Source of the DNA: Caulobacteraceae bacterium
GTDB lineage: Bacteria; Pseudomonadota; Alphaproteobacteria; Caulobacterales; Caulobacteraceae
NCBI GenBank assembly: GCA_947475845.1
Contig: CANJMO010000010.1
Location: forward strand, 1-48,748
Length of the DNA: 48,748 nucleotides
Reading direction: 5' to 3'
In this document: one piece after another, positions 4,244-39,407 of the stretch
Layout of the letters: the number at the start of each line of letters is the position of its first letter
Numbering within the stretch: the first letter of the stretch is position 1
The notes under the pieces: generated by a model
What the model was told of the DNA's origin: nothing
The model's input: only the letters and a program-made list of their open reading frames with translations
Database searches by the model: none
Made by a program: the position numbers and the translations under genes

Positions 4244-5233
4244 TCAGTGGTGGTCCGGGTGACAGTCGAAGCCCTGGCGCTCGATCTGGAAGGTCGCGTG
4301 TTCGATCCTGAACCGGCGCTCCATGGTCTTGCACAGTTTCTGCAGGAAGGCGTCGTTGTTGGCTTCCTCGGGCATGACGAGGTGGGCGGTCATGGCTAAC
4401 GAGGACGCGCCCATGGCCCAGACGTGCAGGTCGTGGACTTCGCTGACGCCGGGCTGCTGGCACAGGTAGTCGCGCACGGCCTTGACGTCGATCGAGCGGG
4501 GGGCGGCGTCCATGGCCATGTCGGTAGCTTCGCGCAGCAGGCCCCAGGTGCCGTAGAGGATCACCAGAACGATGACGATGCTGGCCAGGGGGTCGATCCA
4601 GCTGGCCCCGGTCAGCATGACCAGCAGGCCGGCGGCGATCACCCCGACCGAGATCAGGGCGTCGGCGGCCATGTGCAGGAAGGCGGCCTTGACGTTGGTG
4701 TCGTCCTCGCGGCCGCGCATGAACATCAGGGCGGTGGCGCCGTTGATCAGCACGCCGAGGCCGGCGGTGACCATGACCATGGTGCTCTGCACCGGCTCGG
4801 GCTCCAGGAAGCGATGGAAGGCCTCCCAGACGATGGCGCCCGAGGCGAACACCAGCAGCAGGCCGTTGATCAGGGCGGCGAACACGGTCGCCTTGCCGAA
4901 ACCATAGGTGCGCTGGCTGCCGCTGGGCTGCTTGGCCAGCCATACCGCGCCGCCGGCCAGCGCCAGGCCGAGGACGTCGGACAGGTTGTGGCTGGCGTCG
5001 GCGAACAGGGCGGTGGAGTTGGACAGCACGCCGGCGATGGCCTCGGCGATGACGAAGGCCAGGTTCAGGCCGATGCCGATCAGATAACGCCAGTCGCCCA
5101 GGCTGCCGGGCGGGGCGTGATGGTGGTGATGGCCGTGCCCATGTCCATGGTTGTGATGGCCGTGATCGTGGTCATGATCGTGCGCGTGATCATCATGGCC
5201 GTGTTCGTGCGGATGGTCGTGATCGTGGGCCAT
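4244..5233 (-). CDS. Cation diffusion facilitator (Zn2+/Cd2+ efflux), CzcD/ZitB type
   Basis: A 329-residue metal/proton antiporter of the inner membrane. The first 40 residues are almost entirely His and Asp with a few Gly, a likely metal-buffering tail. Six helices follow. The binding-site signature is split as ALFADASHNLSDVLGLAL in TM2 (HxxxD type) and HMAADALISVGVIAAGLL in TM5. A cytoplasmic CDF C-terminal domain ends the protein (VSEVHDLHVWAMGASSLAMT). It lies 9 bases after the stop of the prephenate dehydrogenase gene, so it may be the last gene of the aromatic operon. Zinc is the likeliest substrate by family. Confidence 0.9.
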   Translation of the reverse strand: MAHDHDHPHEHGHDDHAHDHDHDHGHHNHGHGHGHHHHHAPPGSLGDWRYLIGIGLNLAFVIAEAIAGVLSNSTALFADASHNLSDVLGLALAGGAVWLAKQPSGSQRTYGFGKATVFAALINGLLLVFASGAIVWEAFHRFLEPEPVQSTMVMVTAGLGVLINGATALMFMRGREDDTNVKAAFLHMAADALISVGVIAAGLLVMLTGASWIDPLASIVIVLVILYGTWGLLREATDMAMDAAPRSIDVKAVRDYLCQQPGVSEVHDLHVWAMGASSLAMTAHLVMPEEANNDAFLQKLCKTMERRFRIEHATFQIERQGFDCHPDHH

Positions 5234-23175: not shown

Positions 23176-24168
23176 GTGGCTATGGACAAGGATACCGACG
23201 CCTATCGGCACGATCACGCTTTCCTCGGCGAGCACCACGACCGCAACGCGCGCAAGACCTGGGCGGTGGTCGCGCTGTGCACGGTGATGATGGTGGTCGA
23301 GGTGGTGTGGGGCTGGATGTTCCACTCCATGGCCCTGCTGGCCGACGGCGTGCACATGGCGACCCATACCGGGGCCATGCTGATCGCCGCGGCCGCCTAT
23401 ATGCTGGCGCGCAAGCGGCAGTCCGATCCGCGGTTCAGCTTCGGCGCCGGCAAGTTCGGCGACCTGGCCGCCTTCACCAGCGCCATCATCCTGATCTCGA
23501 CATCCCTGGCCGTGGGGGTGGAGAGCATCGTGCGGCTGTTCAAGCCCGAACCGATCGGCTTCGACGAGGCCATTCCGGTGGCGGTTCTGGGCCTGCTGGT
23601 CAATCTGGTCAGCGCCTGGCTGCTCAACGATCACGACCATGGCCATTCGCACGGGCACGACCACGGCCCCGCCCATCATGCGGCCCACGACCACGACCAC
23701 GACCACGACCATCATGATCACGACCATCACGAACACCAGCATCATGGCCATCACGACCTGAATCTTCGCGCGGCCTATGTGCATGTGGCGTCGGACGCGG
23801 CGGTGTCGCTGCTGGCCATCGTCGGCCTGCTGGCCGGGCGCCAGTTCGGCTGGGTCTGGCTCGATCCGGTCATGGGACTGGTGGGGTCGTTCGTGATCGC
23901 CAAATGGGCCTGGAGCCTGATCCAGGCGGCGGGCGGCATCCTGCTGGACGTCAATCCCGACCCGAGACTGCAGGCCCGCATCGTCGAGCGCCTACAACGC
24001 GACGGCGACCGTATCTGCGACCTGCACCTGTGGCGATTGGGGCCCGGACACAACGCGGTCATCGTCAAGATCCTGACCTCGAGCGGCAACCTTCCGAGCG
24101 TCTACCATCACCGCCTGGAGGGTCTGGCGACGCTCAGCCATGTGACTATCGAGGTCGAGCGGCTCTAG
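23176..24168 (+). CDS. Cation diffusion facilitator with His-rich loop (DmeF-like)
   Basis: A 330-residue CDF metal exporter. TM2 has LLADGVHMATHTGAMLIAA (HxxxH-type site) and TM5 has AYVHVASDAAVSLLAIVGLL. Between TM4 and TM5 is a loop of about 45 residues, roughly positions 152-195, made almost only of His and Asp. This architecture is typical of DmeF-type Co2+/Ni2+ exporters, although zinc is possible. GTG 23176 or ATG 23182 could be the start. Its metal-site pattern and loop position differ from the CDF at 4244-5233, so the two are not recent duplicates. Confidence 0.9.
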   Translation: MAMDKDTDAYRHDHAFLGEHHDRNARKTWAVVALCTVMMVVEVVWGWMFHSMALLADGVHMATHTGAMLIAAAAYMLARKRQSDPRFSFGAGKFGDLAAFTSAIILISTSLAVGVESIVRLFKPEPIGFDEAIPVAVLGLLVNLVSAWLLNDHDHGHSHGHDHGPAHHAAHDHDHDHDHHDHDHHEHQHHGHHDLNLRAAYVHVASDAAVSLLAIVGLLAGRQFGWVWLDPVMGLVGSFVIAKWAWSLIQAAGGILLDVNPDPRLQARIVERLQRDGDRICDLHLWRLGPGHNAVIVKILTSSGNLPSVYHHRLEGLATLSHVTIEVERL

Positions 24169-24195: not shown

Positions 24196-24678
24196 ATGGA
24201 CGCCATTTTCCGCGCCGTTGAACACAGTTGGCTGAGCCAGTGGCTGCGCGAATCGAGCGTGATGCTGCCGGCGCTGCTGGTGGTTCATACCCTGGGCATG
24301 GGCTTCGCCGCCGGGCCCAGCGTCGTCATCGACCTGCGCCTGCTTGGCTTCGGCCGCCAGATTCCCTTGGCGCCCCTGGCCCGTATCGTCCCGCTGGTTT
24401 GGATCGGCGTCATCCTCAACGCCGCATCGGGCGTTTTCCTGCTGGCGGCCTATCCGACCAAGGCGCTGACCAACCCGGTATTCTTCCTCAAGCTGGCGCT
24501 GATCGCCGGTGCCGTGACCCTGATCGAACCGTTGCGCCGGCAGCTGGCCGACCCTGATCGCTCGGCCAAACGCCTCGCCGCCCTGTCGATAATCCTCTGG
24601 ATGGGCGCGATCACCGCCGGGCGCCTGCTGGCCTACACCCACACCCGGCTGCTGGTCGATCTGAAGGCGCACTTCTGA
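24196..24678 (+). CDS. DUF6644-like four-helix membrane protein, paralogue A
   Basis: A 160-residue inner-membrane protein with four helices. It shares with three other genes in this region (24678, 26870, 27412) a set of invariant features: a His opening helix 2 (VVHTLG), D-x-R-x-L-G after it (IDLRLLG), a Pro in IVPLVW, F-x-x-K in NPVFFLKLAL, and G-R in the last helix (AGRLLAY). No enzymatic motif is recognised. A GCTAGC -10-like hexamer at 24181-24186 would give a nearly leaderless mRNA. Coupled to the next gene by a TGATG overlap. Confidence 0.82.
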   Translation: MDAIFRAVEHSWLSQWLRESSVMLPALLVVHTLGMGFAAGPSVVIDLRLLGFGRQIPLAPLARIVPLVWIGVILNAASGVFLLAAYPTKALTNPVFFLKLALIAGAVTLIEPLRRQLADPDRSAKRLAALSIILWMGAITAGRLLAYTHTRLLVDLKAHF

Positions 24679-25184
24679 TGGATGTCGGGATCGCGCCCTG
24701 GGAGGCCTGGGTGCGGGCCGCCTGGCTGCACCAGTTCATTCTGGGCCACGCCAAGGCCTGGCCGGTGCTGGAGACCCTGCACTATTTCGGCCTTTCCCTG
24801 GTGCTCGGGACCATCTGCCTGTTCGACCTGCGCGTGCTGGGCTTCGCCAAGCCGGTTCCGGTCATGGCCCTGCACCGCCTGGTTCCCCTGGGCGTGGCCG
24901 GTTTCTTGCTGAACCTGGCAACCGGGATCTGCTTCTTTTTCGGCTATCCGGACCAGTACGCCTACAACAACGCCTTCCGGCTCAAGCTGGCGCTGATGGC
25001 TGTGGCCGGCGCCAATATCGCTCTGTTCTACGGGTCGGTATTCGGCGGGCTGAAGACGGTCGCGCCCGGGGCCGAGGCGCCGCGAGCCGCCAAGCTGCTG
25101 ACCGCGGTGTCGCTGTTGTGCTGGATCGGCGTCCTGGTCTGCGGCCGCCTGCTGACCTTCTTCAGGCCGCCGTTCTTCCACTGA
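24678..25184 (+). CDS. DUF6644-like four-helix membrane protein, paralogue B
   Basis: A 168-residue paralogue of the preceding gene. The family markers are TLHYFGLS (conserved His), LFDLRVLGF, RLVPLGVAG, NNAFRLKLALM and VCGRLLTFF. Four hydrophobic helices are present. The ATG at 24678 shares its A with the stop codon of paralogue A, so the two are probably made in equal amounts and may form a hetero-oligomer. It converges on the cytochrome c operon with 30 bases between. Confidence 0.82.
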   Translation: MDVGIAPWEAWVRAAWLHQFILGHAKAWPVLETLHYFGLSLVLGTICLFDLRVLGFAKPVPVMALHRLVPLGVAGFLLNLATGICFFFGYPDQYAYNNAFRLKLALMAVAGANIALFYGSVFGGLKTVAPGAEAPRAAKLLTAVSLLCWIGVLVCGRLLTFFRPPFFH

Positions 25185-25210
25185 CGCTGACCTTCCAGGA
25201 CTGGCGTCAG
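25181..25210. terminator. Possible bidirectional terminator hairpin
   Basis: CTGACGC (25181-25187) and GCGTCAG (25204-25210) form a perfect 7-bp stem with a 16-base loop. It is exactly between two convergent genes. No T-run follows on either strand, so termination efficiency is doubtful. Confidence 0.35.
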
Positions 25211-25214
25211 ATCC

Positions 25215-25559
25215 TCAATTCACGCCGCTCACATAGGCGGCGAGATCGGCGATGTTCTGCGACGAGGCGCTGAAGGTCGGCATGGGCCGGTGCGGACTGA
25301 TGAGGCCGCGCGCCAGAATTTCGTCGAGGGTCTGGCCCGGATGGAGCCGGCCGAAGTCGCCGAATCGCGGCGCGCCCTGGACAGGGCTGAACGGCTGCCC
25401 GCCCACCGCGTGGCACTGGGCGCATACGCGCCGCGCCAGGAAGGCGCCGCGGCTGGGGGACGCCTGCGAAAGCGGTTCGCTCGCGCAGCCGCCCAGGCCG
25501 ATCAGAGCGGCGAGAATCAGCCCCGCTCCCGGCGCCCGATGGCGTGGCTTGGGGTTCAT
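25215..25559 (-). CDS. Lipoprotein c-type cytochrome
   Basis: A 114-residue exported cytochrome c. The signal peptide ends in a lipobox (LGGC, lipid-attached Cys25), so the protein should be anchored to a membrane facing the periplasm. The heme site is CAQCH at residues 46-50, and Met93 in HRPMPTF is the likely sixth ligand. This is the layout of a class I mono-heme cytochrome. Its ATG overlaps the stop of the 46-residue membrane ORF (ATGA at 25556-25559). It probably shuttles electrons to or from the membrane proteins of this locus; the partner is unknown. Confidence 0.88.
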   Translation of the reverse strand: MNPKPRHRAPGAGLILAALIGLGGCASEPLSQASPSRGAFLARRVCAQCHAVGGQPFSPVQGAPRFGDFGRLHPGQTLDEILARGLISPHRPMPTFSASSQNIADLAAYVSGVN

Positions 25560-25696
25560 GGCGTGTGCGTGAGTACAAGCAGGACAACGATGTAGCCAAG
25601 GATCAGGCCCAGGCCGATCACTATCCCCACCGCAAACGATCCCGGCAGGTCCTCGTCAGCGGCTTTCGGCGGAAGATCGTCTGGCAAATTGATCAT
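25556..25696 (-). CDS. 46-residue single-helix membrane protein
   Basis: A very short ORF with an acidic cytoplasmic head (MINLPDDLPPKAADEDLPG) and one strong transmembrane helix (FAVGIVIGLGLILGYIVVLL), ending LTHTP. The ATG at 25696 is 15 bases after the stop of the upstream gene (25712) and its stop overlaps the cytochrome c start. Size and layout resemble small oxidase subunits such as CcoQ or CydX, but there is no clear sequence match. The tight fit between two genes is the main support. Confidence 0.62.
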   Translation of the reverse strand: MINLPDDLPPKAADEDLPGSFAVGIVIGLGLILGYIVVLLVLTHTP

Positions 25697-25711
25697 GACA
25701 TCTGGCCCGCG

Positions 25712-26110
25712 TCAGAACGGCTGCAGCGAGACGACCTTGAGGACATGCTCGCCGTCCGGACGGATCACCGAGATGTATTCGCCCGGCGTAAAGCGCTCCA
25801 TATCGAAGCGGAACGCCACGTCGACCGACTTGGCCTCGTCGTCGAATTCAAACACCCACTGCGATTCGTCATTTCGGCGCAGGCAGCCGTGCGCCTTGAG
25901 CCCGCGAGAGGTCCGCGCCACAGTGCACAATTCGGGGAAGGCGTCCCAGCCGCTCTTGTCCAATGAGCCGTCGCTCTTGAGCGGAAGCACCAGGGTGTAG
26001 CGCTCGTCGTGCGATCCTGTCGGGTGAGCCCGCTCGCGTGCGGTGTCGAGGTGGACGATCTGGAAGTGGACTCGCGGGTGGGTCCGGATACGGGTCTGGT
26101 GGGCATGCAT
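25712..26110 (-). CDS. Hypothetical soluble protein (132 aa), first gene of the cytochrome c operon
   Basis: A 132-residue protein with no signal peptide or membrane helix. It is rich in charged residues with beta-type segments (RYTLVLPLKSDGSLDKSGWD, QWVFEFDDEAKSVDVAFRFD, GEYISVIRPDGEHVLKVVSL). I do not recognise the family. GAGGAA lies 8 bases before the ATG. Upstream is a FixK/FNR box with class II spacing, so this gene heads the operon 26110-25215 with the tiny membrane protein and the cytochrome. Confidence 0.75.
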   Translation of the reverse strand: MHAHQTRIRTHPRVHFQIVHLDTARERAHPTGSHDERYTLVLPLKSDGSLDKSGWDAFPELCTVARTSRGLKAHGCLRRNDESQWVFEFDDEAKSVDVAFRFDMERFTPGEYISVIRPDGEHVLKVVSLQPF

Positions 26111-26146
26111 GACCGGCTTCCTCGTGGGCTGGATGGCGCTGGACGC

Positions 26147-26187
26147 AATCTAGGAAGCCGGCGGATCACCGCATTGCGTTCGATCAA
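26147..26187 (-). promoter_or_regulatory. FixK/FNR-type class II promoter of the cytochrome c operon
   Basis: On the minus strand TTGATCGAACGCAA (26187-26174) has one perfect TTGAT half-site and a CGCAA half, a common alphaproteobacterial FNR/FixK variant. After 21 bases comes TAGATT (26152-26147), a good -10. This puts the box centre near -41 from a start around 26140, the class II activator position, and leaves a 29-base leader with a ribosome site. Confidence 0.65.
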
Positions 26188-26216
26188 CACGGCCAGACGC
26201 CAAGTCAGCCGGATGC

Positions 26217-26873
26217 CTAGGCGGCCGGGTCGGCCCCTTCCAAGAGGTTCAACGCGGCGGCGGCGGCGGCCAGCAGGCCGGCGCAAGCCGCGCCGATCCA
26301 CAGGGCGGCGAAGCCCAGATCGGAGAAGGCGCCGGCCCCGGCGACGGCGCCCGCCACCAGTCCGAGCCACAGCAGCAGGTGGGGAACCCAACCGAACACC
26401 GCTTCTCCGGCCAGGGCTCCGGCGATGCGCTGGCCAACCTTGACCAGGGTTCCGGTCATGTAGGTAACGCCGATGCTGACCTCGCCATTGCGCTCGAAGA
26501 AGGTGTTTTCAACGCCCATCGCCAGCGCCAGCATGGCGGTGGCGGGCACGACCAGACCGGCGGCGCCCAGGCTCGCCGCCGCGCCCAGGAGGGCGGCGAC
26601 CACGACCAGGATCAAAGGTTGCCGGTACGCAGGGAGTCTCCGTCCAAAAAACGCGCCGCAGATGACGCCCAGCAGGAAGAGCAAGATCAGACCGACAGCG
26701 AAGCCCGCATCGGCGGAATGACGGGCGGCGCCTACCGCCAGCCGGGTCGAGTTTCCGCTCATGAACGATACGAAGAAGCCGGCGGACGCGAGGAAGCCGA
26801 CGGCGTCCACATAGCCGGCCAGGGCCGAAAGACCGACCGCCAGCAGCTGCGTGCGCCGGCCATAGCCGATCAA
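26217..26873 (-). CDS. DUF1275 (YoaK-like) membrane protein
   Basis: A 218-residue protein with about six hydrophobic helices. It has the DUF1275 hallmarks ALAGYVDAVGFLAS and FVSFMSGNSTRLA near the N-terminus, and MGVENTFFERNGEVSIGVTYMTGTLVKVGQ in the middle (given here in family terms). TTG 26873 is inferred as start because it overlaps the stop of the upstream paralogue C gene (TTGA); an ATG at 26978 would sit deep in that gene. The role is unknown. It is probably the last gene of the crp-type operon. Confidence 0.8.
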   Translation of the reverse strand: MIGYGRRTQLLAVGLSALAGYVDAVGFLASAGFFVSFMSGNSTRLAVGAARHSADAGFAVGLILLFLLGVICGAFFGRRLPAYRQPLILVVVAALLGAAASLGAAGLVVPATAMLALAMGVENTFFERNGEVSIGVTYMTGTLVKVGQRIAGALAGEAVFGWVPHLLLWLGLVAGAVAGAGAFSDLGFAALWIGAACAGLLAAAAAALNLLEGADPAA

Positions 26874-27358
26874 AGCGAGAAGCCCACCTGGCGCCCGCAG
26901 ACGATGATGGCGCCCCAGAACAGCAGCGACAGCGCGCCGGCCACGCGGGCGCCCGTCGCCGGCTTGCCGGTGTCCCATTTCGCCATGTTGCGCTGGGTCA
27001 CCAGATGGAAGACCACCATGTTCAGCCCCGCCAGAGCCATGAACACGAACTTGGCGTTGAAGGCCGGCAGGGCGATGTAGTCAGCCGCCCGCGAGGTGAA
27101 CAGCAGCGATCCGCTGGCTACCGCCAGGCCGAAGGCGGCCCAGGTCCAGGGCAGCATGCTGTGGATCAGGGCGCTCGCCGGCCGGCCTTTGGAGGCCCAG
27201 CCGAGCAGGCGCAGATCGACGATGGCGATGGACCCGAGCACCACTGCAAGGGCGAAGACATGGATCGTCTCGATGGTCGGGAACATCCAGGTGGATTCGG
27301 TGATGGTGATGCCGACGACGGACGCCTGCAGCGTCTCAAAGATGGCGGGAACGGTCAT
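26870..27358 (-). CDS. DUF6644-like four-helix membrane protein, paralogue C
   Basis: A 162-residue member of the same family as the genes at 24196, 24678 and 27412. Markers: TIHVFALA (His), IVDLRLLGW, SMLPWTWAA, LPAFNAKFVF, and VCGRQVGF in the last helix. ATG 27358 is chosen because GAGG lies 8 bases upstream and it matches the family N-terminus. It is 54 bases downstream of paralogue D on the same strand. Function unknown. Confidence 0.82.
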   Translation of the reverse strand: MTVPAIFETLQASVVGITITESTWMFPTIETIHVFALAVVLGSIAIVDLRLLGWASKGRPASALIHSMLPWTWAAFGLAVASGSLLFTSRAADYIALPAFNAKFVFMALAGLNMVVFHLVTQRNMAKWDTGKPATGARVAGALSLLFWGAIIVCGRQVGFSL

Positions 27359-27411
27359 GGCCGGAACCTCGGTGTTCTGATGAAAAGGGAAATCGGCTGG
27401 AGGGCCTCGGC

Positions 27412-27891
27412 CTATGGCCCGTAGGCGATCCAGCGGCCGGCGACGACGATCAGCGCCCATAGCGCCAGGGACGCACCGCCGATCAGCTTGGCGCGGCCCC
27501 GCATGTCGGGCCTGGTCCAGCGATCGGGATGCCGATGCACGGCCTTGGCCAGCATCCAGGTCAGGATGCAGACCGCGACCACAGCGGCCATCTTGATCTG
27601 GAAATAAGGGTTCAGAAGCGCCCGTTTGGGTTCGGCGACCATCAGCAGCAGACCTGTCATCAGCAGCGTCAGCACGCCCCATCCGACGGAGGGCAGGAAG
27701 CGGGCGGTCATCCGCTGCAGCGGCTGGTCGCGGTCGGTCACGCCCAGCAGGCGCATGTCGACGACGGCCGCGGAGGTGAACACCAGGGCCAGGGCCATGA
27801 TGTGGACGGACTGGATCACGGGAATGGTCCAGTTGGTGTTCTGCATGAATTGACTGAGCGAGGTGCGCTCGACGGCGTCTAGGAAGGACAT
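27412..27891 (-). CDS. DUF6644-like four-helix membrane protein, paralogue D
   Basis: A 159-residue family member, closest to paralogue A at the N-terminus (MSFLDAVERTSLSQFM against MDAIFRAVEHSWLSQWL). Markers: SVHIMALA (His), VVDMRLLGV, RFLPSVGWG, NPYFQIKMAA, and VAGRWIAYG. ATG 27891 is preferred to GTG 27921 because GGAG lies 6 bases upstream and because it aligns with paralogue A. It follows the 29-residue ORF. Confidence 0.82.
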   Translation of the reverse strand: MSFLDAVERTSLSQFMQNTNWTIPVIQSVHIMALALVFTSAAVVDMRLLGVTDRDQPLQRMTARFLPSVGWGVLTLLMTGLLLMVAEPKRALLNPYFQIKMAAVVAVCILTWMLAKAVHRHPDRWTRPDMRGRAKLIGGASLALWALIVVAGRWIAYGP

Positions 27892-27917
27892 GAAGGGCTC
27901 CGGTTCAGACGGAAGGG

Positions 27918-28007
27918 TCACTTGCGTTGCGACCAGACCGAGACAAATCCCAGGGTCGCGCCGAAGGCGGCGAACAGGGCGATGACCAGCATCAGGAAGG
28001 GGTGCAC
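27918..28007 (-). CDS. Candidate 29-residue single-helix membrane peptide
   Basis: GTG 28007 opens a 29-codon ORF reading HPFLMLVIALFAAFGATLG, then FVSVWSQRK and stop. It has one transmembrane helix with a basic C-terminus. GGAG lies 8 bases upstream, inside the end of the crp-type gene, and the start is 5 bases after that stop. The size and layout recall CydX/CcoQ-type accessory peptides. Support is the ribosome site, the helix and the operon position only. Confidence 0.42.
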   Translation of the reverse strand: MHPFLMLVIALFAAFGATLGFVSVWSQRK

Positions 28008-28012
28008 CGCGC

Positions 28013-28672
28013 CTACTCCACCATGTCGAGCAGGGCCGCGCGGTCGCGCAGTACGATCCGGCGCGAGGTCGGGATGTAGATCATCCCATCGACCTGCAGC
28101 TGGGTGAGGGTGCGCGAGACCGTTTCGATGGTCAGGCCCAGATAGTCGGCCATGTCCTGACGCGACATCGGCACCTCCAGGGTGCGCGGGTTGCCGGCGC
28201 GCTCCGACAGGTCCAGCAAAAGGCTGGCGACCCGCTCGCAGGCGCTTTTGCGGCCCAGCAGGACGACGTGGTCCTGGGTGCGTTGCAGACCCTCGACGGT
28301 CAGCTTCAGCAACTGGCGGGCGATGTCGTTGTCCTGACCGGCCAGGCCGGCGAGGCTGATGCGCCGCGCGATCAGCACTGTGGAGTCGGCTATGGCCTCG
28401 GCGCTGGTGCGGTGTTCCTCGCCCGCCTCGATGCCGAAATAGCCGCGGGCGAAGTGGAATTCATCGATCTGGCGGCGACCGTCGCGCAGTATGCGATAGG
28501 TGCGCACCGCGCCCGACAGCACCTTGTAGACGTAGATCGCCGGCTCACCCTCGCCGAAGATCTCTTCCTCGCGGGCATAGCGAATCTGCACCCCGTCGAA
28601 GGGCGAGGTTCCGCGGCTGTCGCCAAACACCGCGGCGGCGGGCGTCTCAATCAGTTGGGCATCGAACGGCAT
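28013..28672 (-). CDS. Crp/Fnr-family regulator, FixK type
   Basis: A 219-residue regulator. An N-terminal cyclic-nucleotide-like beta roll (EIFGEGEPAIYVYKVLSGAV) precedes the dimer helix and a C-terminal winged helix with QDMADYLGLTIETVSRTL. The Glu and Ser-Arg of its recognition helix are those used by FNR/FixK to read TTGAT. The N-terminus lacks the cysteine cluster of FNR, and only one Cys is visible overall, so oxygen would be sensed upstream (as in FixLJ-FixK). It heads an operon with the 29-residue ORF, paralogues D and C and DUF1275. A matching box lies at 28779-28792. Confidence 0.9.
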   Translation of the reverse strand: MPFDAQLIETPAAAVFGDSRGTSPFDGVQIRYAREEEIFGEGEPAIYVYKVLSGAVRTYRILRDGRRQIDEFHFARGYFGIEAGEEHRTSAEAIADSTVLIARRISLAGLAGQDNDIARQLLKLTVEGLQRTQDHVVLLGRKSACERVASLLLDLSERAGNPRTLEVPMSRQDMADYLGLTIETVSRTLTQLQVDGMIYIPTSRRIVLRDRAALLDMVE

Positions 28673-28778: not shown

Positions 28779-28820
28779 TTGCGTTGGATCAAGGACGCGG
28801 CCGGCGCGGCCCTGTCTAAT
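28779..28820 (+). promoter_or_regulatory. FixK/FNR-type class II promoter of the response regulator gene
   Basis: TTGCGTTGGATCAA (28779-28792) differs by one base from the box at 26174-26187. It is followed after 22 bases by TCTAAT (28815-28820), a good -10. The predicted start is about 28827, next to ATG 28828, implying a leaderless message. The same box could also serve the divergent crp-type gene (start 28672). Confidence 0.58.
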
Positions 28821-28827
28821 GGCGACA

Positions 28828-29250
28828 ATGAGCATTCCGCCCGCCCCCGTTGTTCAACATGACGTCCGCCCTGCGCCCCGTCCGTGCGTGCTGGTTCTTG
28901 AGAACGACGTCGCCCTTCTCAGCGCCCTGGAATTCGCGCTGGAGGCGGAGGGCTATGACGTGCGCGCGTTCTCCAACCAGATGCAGTTGCTGTCTGGCCA
29001 GGACATCGTCTCAAGCGCCTCGTGCCTGGTGGTCGACTATCGGCTGAGCCCGCTGAACGGTCTGGAAGTCTTCGCCCTGCTGCAGAGCCGAGGCATGAAG
29101 GCGCCGGCGATCCTGATCACCAGCAGCCCGGACACCCAGTGCATCGAGGATGCCGCGCGGCTGGGTGTCGAGCTTGTGGAAAAGCCGCTGCTGACCGACG
29201 CCTTGAGCCGCAAGATCGCCGAGATGATCGGCGCCCGCAGCCTGCACTGA
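28828..29250 (+). CDS. Single-domain response regulator (receiver only)
   Basis: A 140-residue CheY/FixJ-like receiver without an output domain. It has the acidic pair in VLENDVALL, the phosphoacceptor Asp in CLVVDYRLSPLNG, Thr/Ser in ILITSS, and the conserved Lys in LVEKPL. ATG 28828 is preferred to ATG 28819 because the -10 at 28815-28820 overlaps the upstream ATG. It may pass phosphate signals to the FixK system or act as a phosphate sink; the partner kinase is outside the window. Confidence 0.88.
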   Translation: MSIPPAPVVQHDVRPAPRPCVLVLENDVALLSALEFALEAEGYDVRAFSNQMQLLSGQDIVSSASCLVVDYRLSPLNGLEVFALLQSRGMKAPAILITSSPDTQCIEDAARLGVELVEKPLLTDALSRKIAEMIGARSLH

Positions 29251-36992: not shown

Positions 36993-39407
36993 ATGAACAC
37001 CAAGAAATTCTACATGAATAGCGCTGCCCTGCTGGCGTGCGCCGGCCTGATGCTGGGCGCCTCCGCCGCCCGCGCCGCCGAAGTCGCCGAAACGGCCGTG
37101 GCCGACACCGGGCGGATCGAGGAAGTCCAGGTGTTCGCCCGCAAGCGGTCCGAGAACGTGCAGCAGGTGCCGGTCACCGTTCTCACCAGCCAGCAGATGG
37201 CCCGTCAGAACCTGGTCAGCTTCACCAACTTCCAGTTCAAGTTCCCCGCCTTCTCGGTCTACCTGACCAACCCCAAGCAGCTGAACCTCGGCATCCGCGG
37301 CATCCGCGGCATCGGCAACAACGGCTTCAACACTGACGGCATCGACGGTTCGGTCGGGGTGTTCGTCGACGGCGTCTATACCGGCCGTCCCGGCATGGTG
37401 TCGGGCGACTTCAACGACATCGAGCAGGTCGACCTGCTGCGCGGCCCGCAAGGCACCCTGTTCGGCAAGAACACCACCGCCGGCGCGGTGATCATCAACA
37501 CCAGGAAGCCCAGCTTCACCCCCGAGCTGAACCTCGAGGCCAGCGGCGGCAGCTACGCCTACCAGCAATACAAGTTCAGCGCCTCTGGCCCGGTGATCGC
37601 CGACAAGGTCGCGGTGCGCCTGTCCGGCTACTACAGCAACATGGCGGGCACCTATCCGAACATCTATCCGGGCGGCGCCGACGCCAACGCGCGCCAGGGC
37701 TAGGGCGTGCGGCTGCAGGTTCTCGCCACCCCCACCGAACAGTTGAGCTTCCGCCTGATCGCCTCGGTCGGCAGCCAGAACTTCAACACCATCGGTCCGG
37801 TGACCCTGTCGGTCTACACGCCCACGGCCTTGCAGGCGCGGATGGCGGCGGCGGGCTACACCCTCTACACCGGCGGCAACGCCTCCAACCGCCAGGTCAA
37901 CATCAACTCGACGTTGAACGCGGTCACCCACTCCAACTTCGTCAGCGGCCAGTTCGACTACGACCTCGGCGGCAAGGGGGCCCTGACCGCGATCAGCGCC
38001 TATCAGGCGTGGGGCTGCTACACCAACAACGACAACGACTACACCCAGCTGGACGCCCTGCGCGACTATGGCTCGTGCAATACCGAGCGCCAGTTCTCGC
38101 AGGAGCTGCGCTGGGCCTCGCCCAAGGACAAGCCGGTCGAGGCCGTGGTCGGGGCCTTCTATTCGACTCAGCACGTCGACGTGGATTCCCGCGTCCAGTT
38201 CGGCAACCAGTACAACATCTGGGCGGCCAACCCCTCGGCCACCGTCTTTCCCAACGTCGGGACCCAGACCTGGGCCCAGGGCGCCTACATCGGTAAGCTG
38301 ACCGGCTTCGGCATCTCCTCCCACGCCAACTTCAACACCACCACCAAGGCCATCTTCGCCAACGCCAACTGGCATCCGGACGCCGAGCGTAAGTGGGCGG
38401 TCGACTTCGGCCTGCGCCAGACCTGGGAAGACCGCAACATGGACTACCTGGGCAAGGTCGCGTCCAATCCGGGCGGCCTGACCCAGGCCCAGATCAACGT
38501 CATGTCGGCTTCAGGCGCCAACGCCCAGCTGGGCAATGCGCAGGACGCGATCGTCGACGTCTCGCTGGGCGGCCAGGCCAGCCTCAGCTACCGCATCACC
38601 CCCGACGTGATGGCCTATGTCTCGGCCGCGCGCGGTCACAAGTCGAAGGGCTTCAACCTGCTGCCCGAGAACGCCACCAACCCCGATCCGGGCGTGCTTC
38701 TGGCCATCGCCCACGGCGGCACCCAGGACATCCTCGGCGAGACCGCCGACAACTTCGAAGGCGGGATCAAGAGCGAGTGGTTCGACAAGCGCCTGCTGCT
38801 CAACGCCACCGTCTTCCACACCCTGGTCACCAACGCCCAGGCCAATGAGTCCATCGGCGTCGGCAACACCGCCACCAAGTTCCTGGCCAACGTCGGCAAG
38901 GAGAAGTCGGTCGGCATCGAGCTGGAGGGTGAGGCCTGGGTCCCCGGCGGCATCCACCTGAAGGGTTTTGTCGGCTATGACGAGGCGACCTACGCCTCCT
39001 TCACCAACTCGGTGTGCCCGGCGCAGTCGACGGCGCTGAGCTGCGACCTGACCGGCCGTCAGGTGGCCTGGGCGCCCAAGTGGACCACCGACTTCACGGT
39101 CGACTATTCGCACCCGATCGCTGAAGGCGTGAACGGCTACGTCGTGGCCGACGTCAATTGGCGCTCGGAGCAGAACACCACCATCACCCTGGACCCGGCG
39201 GCCCAGATCAACGGCTACGCCCTGGCCTCGTTGCGGGTCGGGGCCCTGCTGCGCCACGACACCGTGGACCTGCAACTGTGGGTCGAGAACCTCGGCGACA
39301 CCAAATATTACATCAACCTGCTGGGCCTGACGAAGGCGACCGGCATCGTCCAGGGCTACCCCGGCAACCCTCGCACCTTCGGCGGCACGGTCAAGGTGCG
39401 CTTCTAG
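36993..39407 (+). pseudogene. TonB-dependent receptor with internal in-frame amber codon
   Basis: One frame from ATG 36993 to TAG 39407 encodes a full-length receptor of 803 residues plus one internal TAG at 37701-37703 (codon 237). The signal peptide is LLACAGLMLGASAARA. The plug domain has VFARKRSENVQQVPVTVLTS and LRGPQGTLFGKNTTAGAV. The barrel runs to a terminal Phe (GGTVKVRF). Upstream of the TAG comes DANARQG and downstream GVRLQVLATPTEQLSF, which suits a TonB receptor if TAG replaced Tyr (TAC/TAT). No other lesion is visible. It is either a very recent pseudogene, a base error, or a read-through gene. Substrate unknown. Confidence 0.85.

Follow-up and report, generated by a model that had tools for sequence, protein, structure and literature searches.

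In the CopC/CopD uptake system, represented by YcnJ of Bacillus subtilis, the CopC part holds Cu(II) in a histidine brace, and a transfer of copper from it to the CopD part (PF05425), in which His295 is required for function, has been proposed (PMC12362106 and PMC13344008). In the families examined in PMC12537917, proteins with a His right behind the signal peptide are copper or nickel binders; the anglerases, which belong to this group, are fused to a membrane permease. We analysed a stretch of 48,748 nucleotides from a Caulobacteraceae bacterium (GenBank assembly GCA_947475845.1, contig CANJMO010000010.1, positions 1 to 48,748; hereafter the window), which carries four small membrane proteins of the DUF6644 type (PF20349, whose function field is empty in Pfam) encoded by two tandem gene pairs, A/B and D/C. 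Of the Pfam families that come into the comparison, CopD, DUF2214 and the protoporphyrinogen oxidase HemJ (PF03653) belong to one clan, and HemJ has four membrane helices. Our data show that DUF6644 genes are paired, that their products share invariant residues, and that they co-occur with DUF6152, a second anonymous family, which is marked by an AxA-HH motif. The papers covered by our literature search, with subscription papers mostly outside its scope, mention none of DUF6152, DUF6644, PF19649 and PF20349; thus neither the DUF6644 pairing nor the link to DUF6152 was found in print.

The four genes lie where the first-pass annotation of the window had placed them. A (24196-24678) and B (24678-25184) are on the plus strand, and the ATG of B overlaps the stop codon of A by one base, an overlap repeated in a genome of the same genus (G024, locus L041). 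D (27412-27891), the first gene of the second pair, and C (26870-27358), the second, are on the minus strand. Pairwise comparison in four of the six pairings gave matches of 33% for A-D (E = 1e-17), 38% for B-C (E = 5e-22), 34% for A-B (E = 4e-25) and 26% for C-D (E = 1e-14), and the motif residues listed in that annotation (a His, D-x-R-x-L-G, a Pro, F-x-x-K and G-R) are invariant in all four proteins. The DUF6644 assignment made there holds for C and D, with 29.3 and 40.9 bits against a cut-off of 27; A (19.6 bits) and B (14.7 bits) score below it and are divergent homologues. Conservation was examined in a collection of 228 DUF6644 domains, 216 of them distinct, the other 12 being second copies of loci found in both collections. 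The His taken earlier to be invariant is present in 228 of 228, as are a Gly and a Lys, followed by an F (222), two R (220 and 219) and a W (214). C of the window is absent from this set and its tree; its invariant residues were seen in separate alignments. Each chain of the family has one invariant His. Six chains of 272-289 residues, all outside the window, show a second weak domain match, and a search against a defence library returned a single weak match, for D.

The source genome, 2.65 Mb in size, holds 11 DUF6644 copies: the two pairs in the window, pairs on contigs C25, C33 and C4, and a single gene on C2. One member of the C4 pair is fused to DUF2231 stretches. The family is found in 27 of 60 genomes of the same taxonomic family, source genome included, and across the phylum in 11 of 150 genomes when the Pfam model is applied at E 0.001, with 8 above its cut-off. 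A scan of named genomes yielded 227 relatives; we retained the best 80 loci, whose labels are mostly Sphingomonadales, Caulobacterales, Bradyrhizobium and beta- and gammaproteobacterial metagenome-assembled genomes.

The D type and the C type share a common ancestry (hhalign E 7e-39) and separate on the tree of 228 domains. Gene order in the 98 pairs in tandem (genes less than 200 bp apart) is D-C in 74, C-D in none, of other types including A/B in 23, and 'D-other' in one. Likewise, the 92 distinct pairs comprise 68 D-C, no C-D, 23 other and one 'D-other'. This single 'D-other' pair is D/C of the window, with C missing from the tree. Gene calling left 13 D and 9 C domains without a partner; the simple script used for it overlooked some genes and extended others too far, so that 3 of the 80 loci gave no DUF6644 open reading frame (ORF) and some single DUF6644 genes have a partner that was missed. 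An obligate heterodimer would be expected to show just such a fixed D-then-C order, which supports the hetero-oligomer that the first-pass annotation had proposed; from this order we infer that D and C would form such a dimer.

Larger and accessory proteins were seen at some of these loci. L011 7844-9250, L044 8594-10006 and L050 7551-8990 encode proteins of 468-479 residues whose C-terminal domain is DUF6644; the L011 protein has two DUF2231 stretches ahead of the DUF6644 domain, and a cytochrome c gene lies nearby. At 10 of the 80 named loci, for example L144 6433-7617, a HupE/UreJ permease cluster lies near DUF6644 pairs. Its L144 member, the one scanned, has a His right behind an AxA-like signal peptide end and in this resembles the anglerases of PMC12537917.

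Co-occurrence across genomes points to DUF6152 as the partner of the pairs. Among the 60 genomes, 25 have both families and 32 have neither, with DUF6644 alone in 2 and DUF6152 alone in 1 (Fisher 1.7e-13), and copy numbers in the 25 genomes are correlated (rho 0.85). In genera mixed for DUF6644, the two families agree genome by genome in six of eight (g18 and g19 disagree). Furthermore, 18 of 65 DUF6152 genes lie less than 150 bp from a DUF6644 gene on the same strand, and in 17 of these, overlaps being read by start, DUF6152 stands in front. Gene rows include DUF6152-DW-A-B at L053 and DUF6152-A-B at L058. DW is a secreted family that has no Pfam match (one representative searched) and no NCBIfam match above cut-off (three searched). 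It is present at 57 of the 80 named loci, and 50 of 67 DUF6152 genes have a DW gene within 300 bp, as against 90 of 1353 other genes. DW was not found in six genomes with DUF6644, five of which have a single DUF6644 and a single DUF6152 gene, and DUF6152 with DUF6644 therefore looks like the minimal unit. A putative signal-peptide end placed directly before His-His (AxA-HH) is present in 66 of 67 DUF6152 proteins, or 63 of 64 distinct ones, compared with 14 of 1489 other neighbours. Second copies of some loci remain in these neighbour, DW-distance and AxA-HH counts, as in the FixK-box counts given below. The second His and a Pro-His are invariant in 27 aligned DUF6152 sequences. The mature end of DUF6152 probably begins with His-His, a candidate copper histidine brace. 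We also note that in the DW family (G000, G016) at least 40 matches fall in a 2.65-Mb genome, several copies having in-frame stops, and that DUF6152 and DW genes alternate in tandem on contig C30 of G016.

We consider it plausible, if a little short of probable, that these proteins form a metal relay of the CopC/CopD kind, in which the membrane part, the DUF6644 pair, is split and heterodimeric and has DUF6152 as its partner. A and B, and likewise D and C, would each supply one of two dissimilar halves to a membrane complex, each heterodimer having 4+4 helices in a CopD/HemJ-like fold. The invariant cluster His33, Gly83, Lys103 and Gly155-Arg156 (C numbering) would lie in the periplasmic third of the membrane. 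DUF6152, usually encoded beside DW, would be the regular partner, a small periplasmic protein with a conserved Pro-His and a mature end that is probably His-His, and would bind Cu(II) via its N-terminal histidine brace. By analogy to YcnJ, copper, or electrons through copper, would then pass from DUF6152 to the His/Lys site of the pair.

This arrangement is like the CopC/CopD system in combining a periplasmic candidate histidine-brace protein with a membrane protein that has a conserved His, and in offering 4+4 helices per pair. The H, G and K of DUF6644 align, at low probability, with residues invariant in nine CopD proteins (H156, G207, K235) and in seven HemJ proteins. Unlike CopD, a single chain of about 300 residues, DUF6644 chains are of half length (159-168 residues in the window) and score below the CopD cut-off; a heteropair would replace one chain, and DUF6152 would replace CopC. 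HemJ shares the aligned His and Lys in the profile comparison. In contrast to HemJ, DUF6644 proteins fall below its cut-off and lack the N-E-x-P of its last helix (N, E and P are invariant in seven HemJ, and the columns conserved across 53 DUF6644 members do not include them), and the source genome carries a separate HemJ of its own. DUF6152 resembles the N-terminal-His metalloproteins in having a putative signal peptide that would be followed directly by His; the main text of PMC12537917 does not name DUF6152, and the likeness lies in this N-terminal arrangement.

Structural models of C and D agree in outline. AlphaFold2 single-chain models of C (mean pLDDT 95.3) and D (94.4) show two short helices, then four long ones. 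They place the invariant His 8 residues into the first long helix, behind the two short N-terminal helices, and not at the start of helix 2 where it had been put before. Measured from the conserved face of its helix, this His is turned by about 48 degrees in type C, in support of the earlier reading, and by about 84 degrees in type D, whose conserved face is weaker. Loop charges in type C (0.8 basic versus 3.0 acidic residues in the N-terminal part, 2.9 versus 0.5 in loop 1-2) favour an N-terminus outside, type D being less clear. An N-terminus outside would place the cluster of invariant residues (His, Gly, Lys and Gly-Arg) in the outer third of the membrane.

Profile comparisons point weakly to a CopD/HemJ-like fold, and we do not claim membership of either family. 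Among 53 members scanned at E up to 1, the families matched most often were DUF2214 (20 members, best 3.1e-6), CopD (11, best 8.1e-5), UPF0093/HemJ (5, best 0.024), SirB (4), DUF2269 (4), and TctB, MatE and PsbX (3 each). The hhalign scores were 25.8 for A2-HemJ, 20.8 for A2-CopD, 29.2 for type D-CopD, 21.0 for type D-HemJ and 25.0 for type C-HemJ, whereas reversed profiles reached 10-16 and the three decoys 16-21; HemJ or CopD scored above the reversed copies in five of six pairings and above two of the three decoys. A, B and C have no CopD or HemJ match at E 1. The best fold matches were, for C, the de novo heme-binding protein 4D2, cytochrome b561, cytochrome b6f and hydrogenase cytochrome b (Z 7-11) and, for D, 4D2 (12.0) and hydrogenase cytochrome b (10.1), values that are unremarkable for helical bundles; neither CopD nor HemJ is among the fold matches listed. 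Sequence searches of the PDB gave no relative for DUF6644, DUF6152 or DW: the DUF6644 profile had no match at E 10, single DUF6152 and DW proteins had none at E 1, and the DUF6152 profile had five chance-level matches, best E 0.12.

Several observations weigh against a CopC/CopD-like relay. The type C-CopD comparison scored 11.9, under its reversed control of 14.1; one decoy (21.4) outscored A2-CopD; the best hhalign probability was 16%; and the best CopD match among the 53 members reached only E 8.1e-5. D, at 13.5 bits for CopD and 15.4 bits for HemJ, is far under the cut-offs of 32.1 and 34.2. Foldseek returned no match at E <= 0.001, and fold searches otherwise yield common helix bundles. 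Loop 3-4 of type C, cytoplasmic in the proposed topology, is acidic (0.9 basic, 1.8 acidic) and misfits the charge rule. With a crude predictor of signal-peptide cleavage, only 20 of 64 DUF6152 proteins came out with His at +1. Kinship among the 60 genomes was addressed solely by the mixed-genus check. Copies per genome go up to 13 for DUF6644, 42 for DUF6152 and at least 40 for DW, more than would be expected for simple copper uptake. Neither a DUF6152 nor a DW gene was found in the window, and the partner would therefore act in trans here. Finally, proteins with a CxxCH motif make up 21 of 260 genes within 1.5 kb of DUF6644, as against 7 of 403 beyond 4.5 kb.

Since CxxCH proteins are enriched close to DUF6644, a redox role is possible. 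As the first-pass annotation had suggested in outline, the pairs could be electron-transfer subunits that bind b-type heme or quinone and link the quinone pool to periplasmic c-type or PQQ proteins, the invariant His of each half ligating heme; we regard this as rather unlikely. HemJ, to which the family is weakly similar, has the same His and Lys and is reportedly, to go by the title of Skotnicova 2018, a b-type heme protein. A PQQ dehydrogenase cluster, whose representative matches Pfam PQQ, is present at 17 of the 80 loci, and one DUF2231-fused paralogue lies 97 bp from the pair of a cytochrome c gene. A single invariant His per chain argues against this reading, and so does the identity of the co-occurring partner, which is DUF6152 and not a cytochrome of the window type. 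CxxCH proteins lie within 4 kb of DUF6644 at 31 of 77 loci, 7 of which have no DUF6152 or DW, and 14 of the 77 have no CxxCH protein, DUF6152 or DW alike.

The cytochrome of the window had been proposed as the periplasmic partner of the four proteins. It is a lipoprotein c-type cytochrome, as first described (25215-25559, minus strand; CAQCH, and an LGGC lipobox by eye), which passes PF00034 (25.3 versus 21.3 bits) and narrowly misses PF13442 (26.9 versus 27). Its family (E <= 1e-8) is present in 19 of the 60 genomes irrespective of DUF6644: 9 have both, 10 the cytochrome only, 18 DUF6644 only and 23 neither, which is co-occurrence at chance (P = 1). We thus reject the window-type cytochrome as a conserved partner and keep c-type cytochromes in general open; DUF6152 is the better-supported partner. 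A/B and the cytochrome gene are convergent on opposite strands and therefore do not form one operon.

The FixK-type regulator named in the first-pass annotation is confirmed (28013-28672, minus strand; NCBIfam NF050806, 309.9 versus 300 bits). Downstream of it on the same strand follow a putative single-helix ORF of 29 residues with a GTG start (27918-28007), D, C, a DUF1275 membrane protein whose start is uncertain (26217-26861; 114.5 bits), a soluble 132-residue protein encoded by the "25.7-kb gene" (25712-26110), a second putative single-helix ORF of 46 residues (25556-25696) that overlaps the cytochrome start by 4 bases, and the cytochrome gene. Both tiny ORFs had been reported before. A receiver-only protein (28819-29250, plus strand) has its best partial matches in FixJ and FixT, under their cut-offs. 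Because the pairs lie among or beside these Fix genes, micro-oxic expression would be possible in the window.

FixK, receiver, cytochrome and pairs might on these grounds be read as one oxygen-controlled functional module, an idea we find doubtful. Its appeal lies in the single strand shared from FixK to the cytochrome and in FixK/FNR boxes, which we scanned within 300 bp upstream of genes using the consensus TTGAY-N4-RTCAA. Exact boxes precede 6 of 229 DUF6644 genes versus 6 of 1353 others (P = 0.004, one-sided; a single locus enters twice), and one-mismatch boxes 16 of 229 versus 41 of 1353 (P = 0.005). Next to a FixK homologue in G016 lies a DUF6152 gene whose ORF start is preceded, at 89 bp, by an exact box (L242 2911-3000, G016:C52). 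Against one module, the window has no exact box, upstream of A and D included, and its three one-mismatch boxes are about what chance gives; in the tested loci no exact box precedes any of 67 DUF6152 or 136 DW genes. FixK was found in 6 of 8 genomes searched for it, and in all five of these besides the source genome it is on another contig than every DUF6644 gene, which does not support FixK as a conserved neighbour. FixK and such a cytochrome share a contig in G029, G039 and G006, and the cytochrome and the 132-residue family occur together in G022; neither G006 nor G022 has DUF6644. We judge that the cytochrome belongs with the Fix genes. A shared Fix module may exist, with the pairs inserted in it or placed next to it in the window; no single one of these loci shows the whole set. 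A FixK link to the DUF6644 pairs, and with it control by FixK, is possible.

Relatives of the 132-residue protein adjoin FixK or the cytochrome elsewhere. A homologue lies beside FixK at L165 (by eye), and at L238 4722-5519 a receiver-like protein (by eye) with a 38% match to the family adjoins a FixK homologue. The names FixL, FixJ and TonB at other loci were likewise assigned by eye.

Least likely, and in our view improbable, is that DUF6152 acts in the periplasm as a small copper-dependent oxygenase or peroxygenase, a minimal histidine-brace enzyme for which DW binds substrate and a split CopD-like pair supplies copper or electrons, each copy serving the substrate of a different locus: multi-copy expansion, DUF6152-DW gene units and the occurrence of esterases, PQQ dehydrogenases and (by eye) TonB-receptor-like proteins at the loci fit it, but no activity is known for DUF6152, and for the N-terminal-His proteins tested in PMC12537917 (DUF4198, Ang-1 and Ang-2) the authors concluded a role in metal binding or transport.

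Two further observations concern the surroundings. The gene for a cation efflux protein with a His-rich loop (23176-24168, plus strand; PF01545, 128 bits) precedes A by 27 bases; we rejected it as a conserved partner, its only homologue among neighbour proteins being another gene of the window. Its product and the protein of 4244-5233 are distant relatives, 23% identical and both with His-rich stretches; of the two, the product of 23176-24168 was scanned and passes Pfam Cation_efflux. Two TonB-receptor-like ORFs (36993-37703 and 37707-39407, by eye) lie in the same frame with a stop between them, an interrupted gene or a sequencing error.

Together the data join three anonymous families, DUF6644, DUF6152 and DW, as one testable system. 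Fixed pairing of DUF6644 and its association with a secreted protein that probably starts with a metal-binding His speak for a metal-handling or redox system not described so far, and not for the adjacent cytochrome. If copper binds, the pairs would represent a split CopD-like importer or relay together with a new N-terminal-His family; if heme binds, they would be a heterodimeric relative of HemJ.

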